Below, piece after piece: positions 39,995 through 44,188 of a DNA stretch of 44,188 nt; position 1 is the first letter of the stretch, and every line of letters starts with the position of its first letter. The notes under the pieces were generated by a model. The model was not told the origin of the DNA, searched no databases, and was given only the letters and a program-made list of their open reading frames with translations. The translations under genes were made by a program, and so were the position numbers. Origin of the DNA: Deltaproteobacteria bacterium tcs-42 (GTDB taxonomy: Bacteria > Desulfobacterota > Desulfuromonadia > Desulfuromonadales > Geopsychrobacteraceae); the NCBI GenBank assembly GCA_002049545.1, contig LLYT01000012.1:1-44188 (forward strand). The letters are read 5' to 3'.

Positions 39995-40246
39995 ATGAAA
40001 GAGCCTCAAGGAAATTACATCAGAGAAGCCTGGATCCTTTGTCTGATTCTGGGCTTGATCATGATCAACTTTCCCTTCATCCATATATTCAATACTAAAC
40101 AGTTGCTGTTCGGTATGCCGAAACTTGTTCTCTACTTCTTTATCGGCTGGCCGGTATCGATAGCCGTTATCTGGCTTTTTGTCCGGTACATCGAAAGGGA
40201 CTCGCAAGATGGCTCTACATCACTGCAAGACAAGGGCGACCCATGA
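39995..40246 (+). CDS. Small two-TM membrane protein coupled to the downstream symporter-phosphatase
   Basis: EAWILCLILGLIMINFPFIHIF...PKLVLYFFIGWPVSIAVIWLFVRYIERD; stop overlaps the next start (ATGA at 40243-40246). Confidence 0.8.
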   Translation: MKEPQGNYIREAWILCLILGLIMINFPFIHIFNTKQLLFGMPKLVLYFFIGWPVSIAVIWLFVRYIERDSQDGSTSLQDKGDP

Positions 40247-43200
40247 TTTCAGCAAAATCGGTCCTGTTCATGTCGGTGATCTCCCCTACAACGGTTCTGC
40301 TTGTCTCACTTGGCTATTTGGCGCTGTTGTTTCTGATCGCCTCCTATGCGGAAAAGTGTCGCAAAACCGACAATTGCCTTCTGAAAAACGCAAATGTTTA
40401 TGCATTGTCGCTAGCAGTCTATTGCACCAGCTGGACATTTTACGGCAGCGTTGGCAAAGCCGCCTCCAACGGCCTGGAATTTCTCCCGATCTATTTAGGA
40501 CCAACCCTGATTGCTTTTGCCTGGTGGTTTCTGCTGCGCAAGATGGTCCTCATCAGTAAGCAGCAAAATATTACCAGCATTGCCGATTTTCTTTCCAGTC
40601 GCTACGATCGCTCCACGCTTCTTGGTGCTATTGTCACACTGTTTGCCGTCTTCGGCATTACCCCCTATATCGCCCTACAGTTGAAAGCCATTGCCCAGAC
40701 ATTGGCTATTCTGTCGATGCCGGTAACAGCTCCCGATACAGGTTTATACGATTTCACAGCCAAACTTCCGGGAAGCATTGATATCGCATTTTTTGTTGCC
40801 ATGCTGTTGGCTCTGTTTGGCGTGCTATTTGGTGCCAGAAGCCTGGACGCATCAGAAAAACATGAGGGACTGGTCGTCGCAGTTGCCTTTGAATCTCTGG
40901 TTAAATTGATCGCTTTTCTTGCCGTCGGTATTTTTGTTACCTATGGTCTGTTTGATGGTTTTATCGATGTTTTCCAGCGCTTTTATGAACAATTTCCAGA
41001 ACGTCGCGACCTGCTCCTGCTTGGCACTGAACGGACCCCCTACACCAAATGGTTTACACTTATTATTCTGTCGATGACGGCTGTCATGTTTCTGCCCCGA
41101 CAGTTCCACATCATGATCACAGAAAATATCGATGAACAGCATATCAAATCTGCCATGTGGAAATTTCCAGCTTACCTTTTCCTGATCAATCTGTTTGTTC
41201 TGCCAATCGCCCTTGGAGGTTTGATCATCAATGGTGGTGACACGACACAGGCCGATTATTTTGTCCTGACTCTGCCAATGTCTGCGGGACAGCCATGGTT
41301 AGCTCTGCTGGTCTTCATTGGTGGGCTGTCTGCCTCTGCCGGAATGGTCATGGTGTCTGCAGTCACGATAGCAACCATGATCCTGAACCAGTTGGTTATG
41401 CCGATCATTCTGAAACTGAATGTCAAAGCGCAAAATATCTCCGGGCTGCTGATCAGCATTAAACGCCTTGGTATTCTTGGTGTCATCTTTATTGGTTACT
41501 TCTATTTCAAAATCATTGGCAGTTCCTACGCTCTGGTCAACATGGGGCTGATATCTTTTGCTGCGGTGACTCAGTTTGCGCCAGCCGTAATTGGTGGGCT
41601 TTTCTGGAAAAGGGCGAATCGCAAAGCCGCCATATCGGGAATCAGCCTGGGTTTTGTCCTGTGGTTTTATACCCTCCTCATTCCATCATTTGTCCGCTCC
41701 GGCTGGCTCAGCTCAGAGATTCTACAAAATGGCCTCTATGGTATCAACCTGTTGAAACCCCTGGAGCTATTCGGCTTGCGTGGGTTTGATATGTACACCC
41801 ACTCTCTGTTCTGGAGTATGCTTTTCAATCTGGCAGCCTACCTGACGTTATCATTCTTTGCCAGACAGACAGAGTCGGAAGAGATGCAAGCCGAAAGATT
41901 TGTTGATATTTTTGTCGAGCAGCCGACACAACCAGCAAAGCTCAAGCGCATCAGCAAAGCACCAACCGTTATGGAATTTGTCGAATTAATGTCCAAATTC
42001 ATTGGTAAAAAACCGGCCCAAGCTGCTATAGCCGATTTTTTAGACAATCAGGAAATTGATGCCAAGGGTAATCTTTCCGATCATGAAATACCCAACCTGA
42101 AAAGCTTCACACAACGCACCCTGGCCGGTCACGTCGGTGCCGCTCCTGCGAAAATCATTCTCGAAAACTATCTGTCCGCTCGCGGTAGTCAGATGGAAGA
42201 TATCTTCGATATATTTGGCACAGTCACTATCAGTCATGCCTCCAGCCGCGAGCAATTGAGTGTCCTGTATGACACTGCACAAATTGTTTCCAGCGGAGGA
42301 GATTTTCAGAAAATCAGCGACAATATACTGGAACTGCTTGCGCAACAATTTAAATTTGACCTTTGTGTGATCCGCTTTCTCGAACCTGAATCGATGACAT
42401 TGATGGTCAAGAGTCTGGTTGGTTCAGCAACGGAACATCTAGGCCAGTTTGAGCGAAATCTCAATATGGATACCTACATCGGGCAGGCGTTCCTGTCTAA
42501 TGCCACTACAGTTGTCAATGATGTCGACTATATCGACAAGCCTCTTTCAGCACAACACATGAAGCGTGATGGGATCACCTGTCTGGCTCACACTCCAATC
42601 GTTTTTGAAGGGGACCCCATTGGAATTCTGTCGGCTTTTTCCAAAACCACAAAAGGGATCTTTACCAGGGAATTCATTGCCCTGTTTGAAAATTTGGCCG
42701 GGCAGGTCGGAATTGCGTGGCGCAACGATCAACAACTACAAAAACTTTTACGCGGTCGTGAACAGGAACGGGAGATGCAGATTGCCAGAGAGATTCAAAA
42801 AACTTTCCTCCCTGCAAACCTCCCCGATCAAGAAAATATCGCTATTGCCGGACTCTGTGTCTCTGCCCATCAAGTTGGCGGAGACTATTACGACATCATT
42901 GAACGCGATAATTCATCATACGACTTGATCATAGCCGATGTGTCAGGGCACAGTATTGGTTCAGCGCTGATCATGGCTGAAACACGCACTTTCATCCATG
43001 CCCGTATGGAAAGCATCAAACATCCGTCTGAAATGTTGCATGCTCTCAACGGCTATTTCCTTAAAGATCTGGATCGCTCCGATCAGTTTGTCACCATGTT
43101 TTACCTCCATTATAATTCACTCACTCATCGGCTGATTTATAGCAATGCCGGTCACAACACGCCGCTTCTCTGGAAAAGTCGGGAACGGAAAATCGTAACT

Positions 43201-43494
43201 CTGGATACCGAAGGGATGATTTTCGGGATCAAAAGCGATATTTCTTTTGAGCAGAAAGCGACAGACCTCGAACCAGGAGATATTCTCCTTCTGTACACAG
43301 ATGGAATTATCGAAGCTGAAAACAAAGACAAGGTCTTCTTTGGAATCGAAAGATTGGGAAAGCTGCTTGAAGAATGCGATGATTTGCACCCTCAAGAACT
43401 GATCGATCAGATTATGACCCAGGGACGAATGTTCACCGGAATGCGACATTTCAATGACGACATTACTCTCGTTGCCATGAAGGTTTTAAAATGA
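40243..43494 (+). CDS. SLC5/SSS-type transporter domain fused to STAC-like linker, GAF and SpoIIE/PP2C phosphatase domains
   Basis: N-terminal multi-TM SSS region (SLAVYCTSWTFYGSVGKAASNGLEFLPIYLGPTL; ITSIADFLSSRYDRS); GAF region (LYDTAQIVSSGGDFQKISDNILELLAQQF...); C-terminal PP2C_SIG motifs AREIQKTFLPANLP, VGGDYYDII, IADVSGHSIGSALIMA, YSNAGHN, LLLYTDGIIEA, FNDDITLVAMK. Confidence 0.92.
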   Translation: MISAKSVLFMSVISPTTVLLVSLGYLALLFLIASYAEKCRKTDNCLLKNANVYALSLAVYCTSWTFYGSVGKAASNGLEFLPIYLGPTLIAFAWWFLLRKMVLISKQQNITSIADFLSSRYDRSTLLGAIVTLFAVFGITPYIALQLKAIAQTLAILSMPVTAPDTGLYDFTAKLPGSIDIAFFVAMLLALFGVLFGARSLDASEKHEGLVVAVAFESLVKLIAFLAVGIFVTYGLFDGFIDVFQRFYEQFPERRDLLLLGTERTPYTKWFTLIILSMTAVMFLPRQFHIMITENIDEQHIKSAMWKFPAYLFLINLFVLPIALGGLIINGGDTTQADYFVLTLPMSAGQPWLALLVFIGGLSASAGMVMVSAVTIATMILNQLVMPIILKLNVKAQNISGLLISIKRLGILGVIFIGYFYFKIIGSSYALVNMGLISFAAVTQFAPAVIGGLFWKRANRKAAISGISLGFVLWFYTLLIPSFVRSGWLSSEILQNGLYGINLLKPLELFGLRGFDMYTHSLFWSMLFNLAAYLTLSFFARQTESEEMQAERFVDIFVEQPTQPAKLKRISKAPTVMEFVELMSKFIGKKPAQAAIADFLDNQEIDAKGNLSDHEIPNLKSFTQRTLAGHVGAAPAKIILENYLSARGSQMEDIFDIFGTVTISHASSREQLSVLYDTAQIVSSGGDFQKISDNILELLAQQFKFDLCVIRFLEPESMTLMVKSLVGSATEHLGQFERNLNMDTYIGQAFLSNATTVVNDVDYIDKPLSAQHMKRDGITCLAHTPIVFEGDPIGILSAFSKTTKGIFTREFIALFENLAGQVGIAWRNDQQLQKLLRGREQEREMQIAREIQKTFLPANLPDQENIAIAGLCVSAHQVGGDYYDIIERDNSSYDLIIADVSGHSIGSALIMAETRTFIHARMESIKHPSEMLHALNGYFLKDLDRSDQFVTMFYLHYNSLTHRLIYSNAGHNTPLLWKSRERKIVTLDTEGMIFGIKSDISFEQKATDLEPGDILLLYTDGIIEAENKDKVFFGIERLGKLLEECDDLHPQELIDQIMTQGRMFTGMRHFNDDITLVAMKVLK

Positions 43495-43677
43495 TCATTG
43501 ATGGAAGTCCACCTCACGGCGTTACGGCGTTTTGTTCAGGACCTCGACACACCTCTTCTCCGCTGAAAAACCCCCAGGCCGTCCAGGGGAGAATTTTTAC
43601 TTAGTTATCGACCGAAAATAGGGTACAATCAACAGCGTAACGTAAAAACCACTAAATTCGAATAAGGGAGATCTTGC

Positions 43678-44013
43678 ATGCAGTTAAACATGACCGAACA
43701 GGACGATATTGTCATAATAAGCGTCGAAGAAGAGCGAATGGATGCCCATAACAGTGGAGACCTTAAAGAACAGATGCTGCAACTGTTTGACGAGGGGAAA
43801 TGTAGCCTGATCATTGATTTGAATGCGGTCCGCTTCATCGATTCGTCGGGTCTTGGTGCTTTGGTTTCCGGCTTCAAAAATGCCAGTGCCCGTGAAGGAA
43901 GTCTCAAGCTCTGCTGCTTGCAACCGCAAGTCCGTTCGATGTTTGAACTCACACGTTTACATCGGGTTTTTGAAATTCACACAAATCAGAATGAAGCATT
44001 GGGTAGCTTCTAA
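43678..44013 (+). CDS. STAS-domain anti-sigma factor antagonist
   Basis: CSLIIDLNAVRFIDSSGLGALVSGFKNA (phosphorylatable DSSGLG serine motif). Confidence 0.94.
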   Translation: MQLNMTEQDDIVIISVEEERMDAHNSGDLKEQMLQLFDEGKCSLIIDLNAVRFIDSSGLGALVSGFKNASAREGSLKLCCLQPQVRSMFELTRLHRVFEIHTNQNEALGSF

Positions 44014-44079
44014 CTGTTGAGTGCCACGACATCGTAGACACTTTTTAGTGCCAGGACATCGTGAACTCAACCGAATATT

Positions 44080-44188
44080 TTAGCGAATTTTGTAATCAAA
44101 TTCTTCAATCTGAACTTTGTCCAGATAGAGTTTCAACCTTTGTTCTTTGACATCGATAGTAGCCACCACGTATTCGAGCTTTGCTTCC
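44080..44188 (-). mobile_element. Possible C-terminal end of a transposase/integrase-core protein, truncated by window edge
   Basis: Minus strand reads EAKLEYVVATIDVKEQRLKLYLDKVQIEEFDYKIR*; adjacent repeated motif GTGCCAcGACATCGTagAC / GTGCCAgGACATCGTgaAC at 44021-44068 resembles an IS terminus. Confidence 0.35.

Follow-up and report, generated by a model that had tools for sequence, protein, structure and literature searches.

A CbrA-like sensor phosphatase as the probable input of a partner-switching cassette in Desulfuromonadia

Near the end of a contig of Deltaproteobacteria bacterium tcs-42, a gene for a transporter-like sensor fused to a SpoIIE-type phosphatase is followed by a gene for a STAS protein. 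Does this locus encode a partner-switching system governed by a transceptor, and is the kinase that such a system requires encoded in the genome? The stretch of DNA that was analysed, referred to as the window, is the whole contig (C24; GenBank LLYT01000012.1; 44,188 nucleotides). An original prediction made from its sequence had proposed partner switching gated by substrate binding or transport at a solute:sodium symporter-like domain, and had noted no RsbW/SpoIIAB-like kinase in the remainder of the window. The data point, with a probability of about 0.72 and on sequence evidence, to a partner-switching system having a CbrA-type transceptor as the input of its sensor phosphatase. A CbrA-like sensor, of a kind elsewhere known for driving histidine kinases, would thus probably signal by partner switching rather than through a two-component system. 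This reading is based on matches to SLC5 and STAC, GAF and SpoIIE domains, invariant catalytic residues, an RsbW-like kinase, a conserved gene order and the gene counts in the genome.

The sensor phosphatase, its STAS protein and the kinase

The sensor gene (40243-43494, plus strand) specifies a protein of 1083 amino acids with the domain order SLC5, STAC, GAF, linker helix and SpoIIE, as indicated by Pfam, TIGRFAM, profile and structure-model matches. The SLC5/SSF domain comprises residues 1-545 (40243-41877) and contains 13 hydrophobic segments, predicted to span the membrane. In the hidden Markov model searches that had been suggested, GAF and SpoIIE were found, but the protein alone gave no match to Pfam SSF and only a weak one to TIGR03648. 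The SSF assignment is nevertheless secure, since homologues 52-57% identical to the protein pass the PF00474 cut-off, the profile of a 24-member family matches the cryo-electron microscopy chain of CbrA (10ed_A) over SLC5 and STAC (positions 5-635, E 1.6e-101), the 13 hydrophobic segments are present, and the AlphaFold2 model (mean predicted local distance difference test 80) matches the NIS and SGLT folds with template modelling scores by target of 0.62-0.71. Residues 546-668 (41878-42246), a STAC-like domain of helices with a linker, lie inside the CbrA match, which reaches profile position 635.

The GAF domain (residues 687-826; 42301-42720) was detected by Pfam GAF_2 (1e-12) and by a profile match to the structure 2QYB (E 8e-41). 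2QYB, solved in 2007, is the GAF domain of a putative membrane protein from Geobacter sulfurreducens PCA and is 42% identical to that of the sensor. It likely derives from a member of the same sensor-phosphatase family, and G. sulfurreducens may therefore carry the cassette described below. The AlphaFold2 model also matches 2QYB, as well as PPM phosphatases including SiaA and RssB; its predicted template modelling score of 0.54 leaves the arrangement of the domains relative to each other uncertain. In this model the last GAF helix continues into the phosphatase as one signalling helix (residues 809-855; 42667-42807).

The SpoIIE/PPM phosphatase domain was matched by Pfam at residues 891-1081 (42913-43485; E 1e-48), and its metal-binding motif GGDYYD starts just before, at residue 879. 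Far from being degenerate, the aspartates D881, D884, D899, D1020, D1072 and D1073 are invariant in every copy covering them. No Pfam match to HisKA or HATPase was obtained in the 1083-residue protein, the SpoIIE domain standing in their place. The sensor is thus not an SLC5/STAC histidine kinase, despite having the input module of these proteins. The predicted composition of an SLC5-like part, a GAF domain and a complete-looking SpoIIE domain in one reading frame was thus borne out by Pfam, the CbrA profile and the metal aspartates; the STAC domain and a small gene upstream formed no part of that prediction.

The STAS gene (43678-44013, plus strand) begins 183 bp downstream of the sensor gene, in agreement with the approximately 180 bp noted before. 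Its product of 111 amino acids resembles anti-sigma factor antagonists (Pfam E 1e-22; TIGR00377 above cut-off) and carries DSSGLG at residues 55-60, a motif kept in 60 of 60 STAS proteins. That no kinase gene is visible in the window is correct, but one is present in the same genome (G000), as a search for the cognate HATPase_c protein revealed. It is located on contig C52 (182-604, plus strand) and encodes an RsbW-like HATPase_c_2 kinase of 140 amino acids. The best models are RsbW (TIGR01924, E 4e-13) and SpoIIAB, both below their equivalog cut-offs, and the best PDB match is RsbW 6m36. Residues E52, N56, D87, G89, G91, G109 and G111 are invariant in 60 of 60 kinases.

The separation of the STAS and kinase genes is probably due to an insertion sequence (IS) element. 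The window breaks off in repeat sequence inside such an element (44015-44188), and C52 starts with the matching inverted end, followed by the kinase gene. Including its 6-bp target-site duplication TCTAAC (44009-44014 in the window, repeated before the kinase gene), the element spans window positions 44009-44188 and C52:1-181; a frame of 36 codons on the minus strand at the end of the window looks like the end of a putative transposase gene. The reconstructed empty site resembles the gap between the STAS and kinase genes of the nearest relative. From the IS ends, the target duplication and the gene order, a join of C24 and C52 is probable, and with it the position of the element between STAS and kinase, a join deduced from these features, not read through. 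Synteny 3' of the kinase gene gave no proof of it, that side being unconserved even in the nearest relative. Among the loci seen, the split of the kinase gene from its usual operon by an IS element was observed only in the tcs-42 genome.

The tcs-42 genome contains one STAS protein matching PF01740, one RsbW-like kinase matching PF13581 above cut-off, and two SpoIIE phosphatases, as found by the sensor search. The second phosphatase has the architecture dCache-HAMP-SpoIIE and is encoded on contig C84 (L045:6974-9100) with neither a STAS nor a kinase gene of its own. By this count, the one STAS protein is probably the substrate of both phosphatases.

Distribution and origin of the cassette

Directly upstream of the sensor gene, and overlapping it by 4 nt (ATGA), is a gene for a small membrane peptide of 83 amino acids (39995-40246, plus strand) with two hydrophobic segments. 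Of 65 distinct loci, 61 have a homologue in this place, and in 33 of these the 4-nt overlap is shared too; homologues also precede relatives of the sensor that are of the histidine-kinase type. In size, place and topology the peptide resembles CbrX, which was seen bound to CbrA by cryo-electron microscopy (PMC13022988). The likeness is set by these features and not by sequence; a PDB sequence search with the small peptide gave no match.

Where a distinct sensor locus had 1.2 kb or more of sequence downstream, the order small gene, sensor, STAS, kinase was found in 54 cases out of 58, which confirms a linkage to STAS whose absence would have told against the original prediction. The four exceptions are two extra sensor copies in one genome (G046, L055), one in another (G084, L142), and locus L067. 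In G084 a normal cassette is present elsewhere (L143). The two extra copies in G046 lie close together (L055:6086-17188) without STAS or kinase genes, and that genome has another full-length copy.

Within the class, genomes at least 90% complete were counted. The full-length fusion is present in 125 of 146 Desulfuromonadia genomes, single-contig assemblies among them, and in 51 of 58 genera; in four more genomes it is present but divided between contigs or reading frames. When the phylum was sampled, the full-length fusion was seen in all seven Desulfuromonadia members, and none appears among the matches listed for 191 other genomes, where SLC5-STAC(-GAF) occurs without this SpoIIE end. The named relatives with the sensor belong to the Desulfuromonadales or are of the Geobacter type: Desulfuromusa, Malonomonas, Geopsychrobacter, Geothermobacter, Citrifermentans, Geomonas and Geobacter. 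The four-gene cassette is therefore a real, class-wide system in Desulfuromonadia.

In a quick tree of the SLC5-STAC part, the phosphatase type forms one clade (Shimodaira-Hasegawa-like approximate likelihood ratio test support 97) near the SLC5-STAC-GAF histidine kinases. Three of its rows bear the label 'other' because their contigs stop short of the output domain. One clade in such a position indicates that the output module was swapped.

Mode of action, target and alternatives

Partner switching, suggested before as the likely mechanism, fits the SpoIIE output, the adjoining STAS gene and the kinase since found. In the proposed circuit the kinase would phosphorylate a serine of the STAS protein (S56 or S57 in DSSGLG) and meanwhile hold a target protein. 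Binding of a substrate to SLC5, of a ligand to GAF, or of both would set off a conformational change that re-registers the continuous helix, by which the SpoIIE phosphatase would be dimerised and activated. The dephosphorylated STAS protein would then capture the kinase and the target would be freed. Activation by dimerisation through the helix is carried over by analogy from RsbU and related phosphatases, control of PPM phosphatases by coiled-coil linkers having precedent (PMC12143880).

The label of a sodium symporter is doubtful. The positions of the CbrA histidine pocket map to Y60, T62, W64, T65, F80, Y84, S277 and F439 of the sensor, and K196, which fills the Na2 site of CbrA, corresponds to K221, invariant in 65 of 65 distinct members as are W64, T65 and F439. 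An open Na2 sodium site was thus not found, and CbrA transport is reported to depend on protons and not to be stimulated by Na+ (PMC7096432). Given K221 in the place of K196, a proton-coupled or uncoupled site for a small molecule is more likely than sodium symport. The substrate is probably different from that of CbrA, or differently bound, because F248 of the CbrA pocket is replaced by Ser in most family members, and S53 and A56 by Thr.

Several observations weigh against a circuit of this kind. In one family of the order (f4), each of the nine genomes has retained the kinase but lacks the sensor. At the five f4 loci inspected (L149, L150, L151, L152, L154), STAS and kinase genes remain at the same syntenic place, between a divergent TPR gene and HAD/Lgt genes, whereas the genes for the small peptide and the sensor are gone; this family has lost them. 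The STAS-kinase pair can therefore work without this sensor. Signalling by CbrA is reported to work after removal or exchange of its SLC5 domain, with no observed effect of histidine (PMC7096432). Several genomes have RpoS, a candidate target considered below, but no cassette, and in one draft genome with the cassette RpoS was undetected. Four genomes (G268, G271, G331, G345) in which both sensor and kinase are missing count in favour of the partner-switching system.

The first question left by this reading concerns the target. The kinase most likely acts on a sigma factor, and RpoS is the best candidate. The tcs-42 genome has three sigma70-type genes, named from reading their sequences as RpoD, an RpoS type adjoining an NlpD-like gene, and FliA adjoining a FleN-like gene; a sigma factor of the SigB/SigF type was not found in it. 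RpoS is preferred because CrsR-CrsA and HsbR-HsbA provide precedent for it as the target of a partner switch (PMC6482189); a further reason is that two cassette-bearing genomes assembled as single contigs (G016, G259) yielded no FliA. As an obligate target, FliA was rejected on account of these two genomes; RpoS as an obligate target found no firm support, its co-occurrence with the cassette not being tight. Alternatively, the freed partner could be no sigma factor at all, with the STAS protein in either phosphorylation state, or the kinase, controlling some other protein, for instance an anti-sigma factor similar to FlgM or a diguanylate cyclase, as in the case of HsbA. This alternative is quite plausible, if on balance not the expected outcome. 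The binding partners of HsbA include HsbD, a diguanylate cyclase, as well as FlgM (PMC6482189), no sigma gene lies in the conserved flanks of the cassette in relatives, and the restricted set of sigma70 genes, the failure to find FliA in G016 and G259 and the loose association with RpoS all agree with it. On the other hand, the best models of the kinase are the anti-sigma factors RsbW and SpoIIAB, and related Gram-negative partner switches bind RpoS directly (PMC6482189).

The second question is which domain is in control. The SLC5 part could be a transporter or a membrane anchor without a role in gating, and the GAF domain could read a cytoplasmic metabolite and alone control dephosphorylation. 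That GAF is the real sensor is conceivable because the SLC5 domain of CbrA was reported to be dispensable for signalling; in the model, moreover, a single helix would join GAF and phosphatase, and one genome (G288) has beside its STAS and kinase genes, in place of the sensor, just a SpoIIE-only protein of 267 amino acids (L153:3388-4191), which seems to have lost the sensor part by trimming. Control by GAF alone is nevertheless considered rather doubtful. The strong conservation of the pocket positions and of the lysine in the Na2 site speaks against it, the small partner peptide is also kept, and in the CbrA structure STAC is packed into the base of SLC5 (PMC13022988).

That the adjacency or the fusion is an accident of assembly or gene calling, as the short contig ending in an IS element might suggest, is refuted for practical purposes by the same full-length architecture throughout the class, single-contig assemblies included.

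Taking the preferred reading of a transceptor-driven partner switch further, a proton-coupled CbrA-type transceptor of Geobacter and related bacteria might sense a nutrient in the membrane and, via STAC and GAF, switch SpoIIE, and through it RpoS or a different target. The conformation of the transporter would then act directly on partner switching, with histidine kinase and phosphatase outputs having been exchanged on the same SLC5-STAC-GAF input. In this full form the proposal is tentative and more apt to fail in some part than to hold.

Comparison with known systems

Nutrient transceptors and partner switching, which are as a rule considered separately, come together in the cassette, and it is nearly universal in Desulfuromonadia, including metal- and electrode-respiring Geobacter; no study of it was found in the literature. 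The architecture is not wholly unreported. The literature search yielded only two items: a 2021 review remarks that Actinobacteria have SSS proteins which also contain GAF, PP2C_SIG and HATPase domains (PMC7918813), and another paper describes a SpoIIE fusion to a sensor of a different type, with five helices (PMC11109136).

The closest known system on the input side is CbrA/CbrX of Pseudomonas. Both share an SLC5 domain with 13 membrane helices, STAC, the lysine in the Na2 site and most pocket residues, as well as a small two-helix peptide encoded in an overlapping upstream gene. In CbrA the input is followed by PAS and histidine kinase domains, and CbrB receives the signal, whereas the tcs-42 sensor has GAF and SpoIIE. 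Even nearer in the tree are the SLC5-STAC-GAF histidine kinases of other Desulfobacterota (L090, L092, L093, L096, L097, L100), which have the same input and the same small upstream gene but a HisKA and HATPase output (checked in L090 and L100), and beside which no STAS/kinase cassette was seen. According to one proposal, a helical linker common to phosphatases and histidine kinases allows them to exchange sensor domains (PMC12143880), and these sister kinases offer a natural test of that idea.

The Actinobacterial type, exemplified by Streptomyces sp. F63 (L105:5983-9591), also combines an SSF input with GAF and a SpoIIE output, but it contains the kinase domain in the same chain and no STAS gene was found beside it. 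Its SLC5 part falls among CbrA-like proteins, outside the phosphatase clade of the quick tree, and the fusion therefore looks independent. A small CbrX-like reading frame is located upstream of it.

On the output side, RsbU/RsbV/RsbW and SpoIIE/SpoIIAA/SpoIIAB likewise consist of a SpoIIE-type phosphatase, a STAS protein with a phosphosite and a HATPase kinase. Their inputs are RsbT-binding, PAS or other domains in contrast to a transporter-like membrane sensor, and no sigma factor of the SigB/SigF type was found in the tcs-42 genome. CrsR-CrsA of Shewanella and HsbR-HsbA of Pseudomonas are, like the tcs-42 system, Gram-negative partner switches with PP2C, kinase and STAS components, theirs acting on RpoS. 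In these, however, the input is a receiver domain and the kinase is fused to the phosphatase, whereas in tcs-42 phosphatase and kinase are encoded by separate genes and the phosphatase is part of a membrane sensor.

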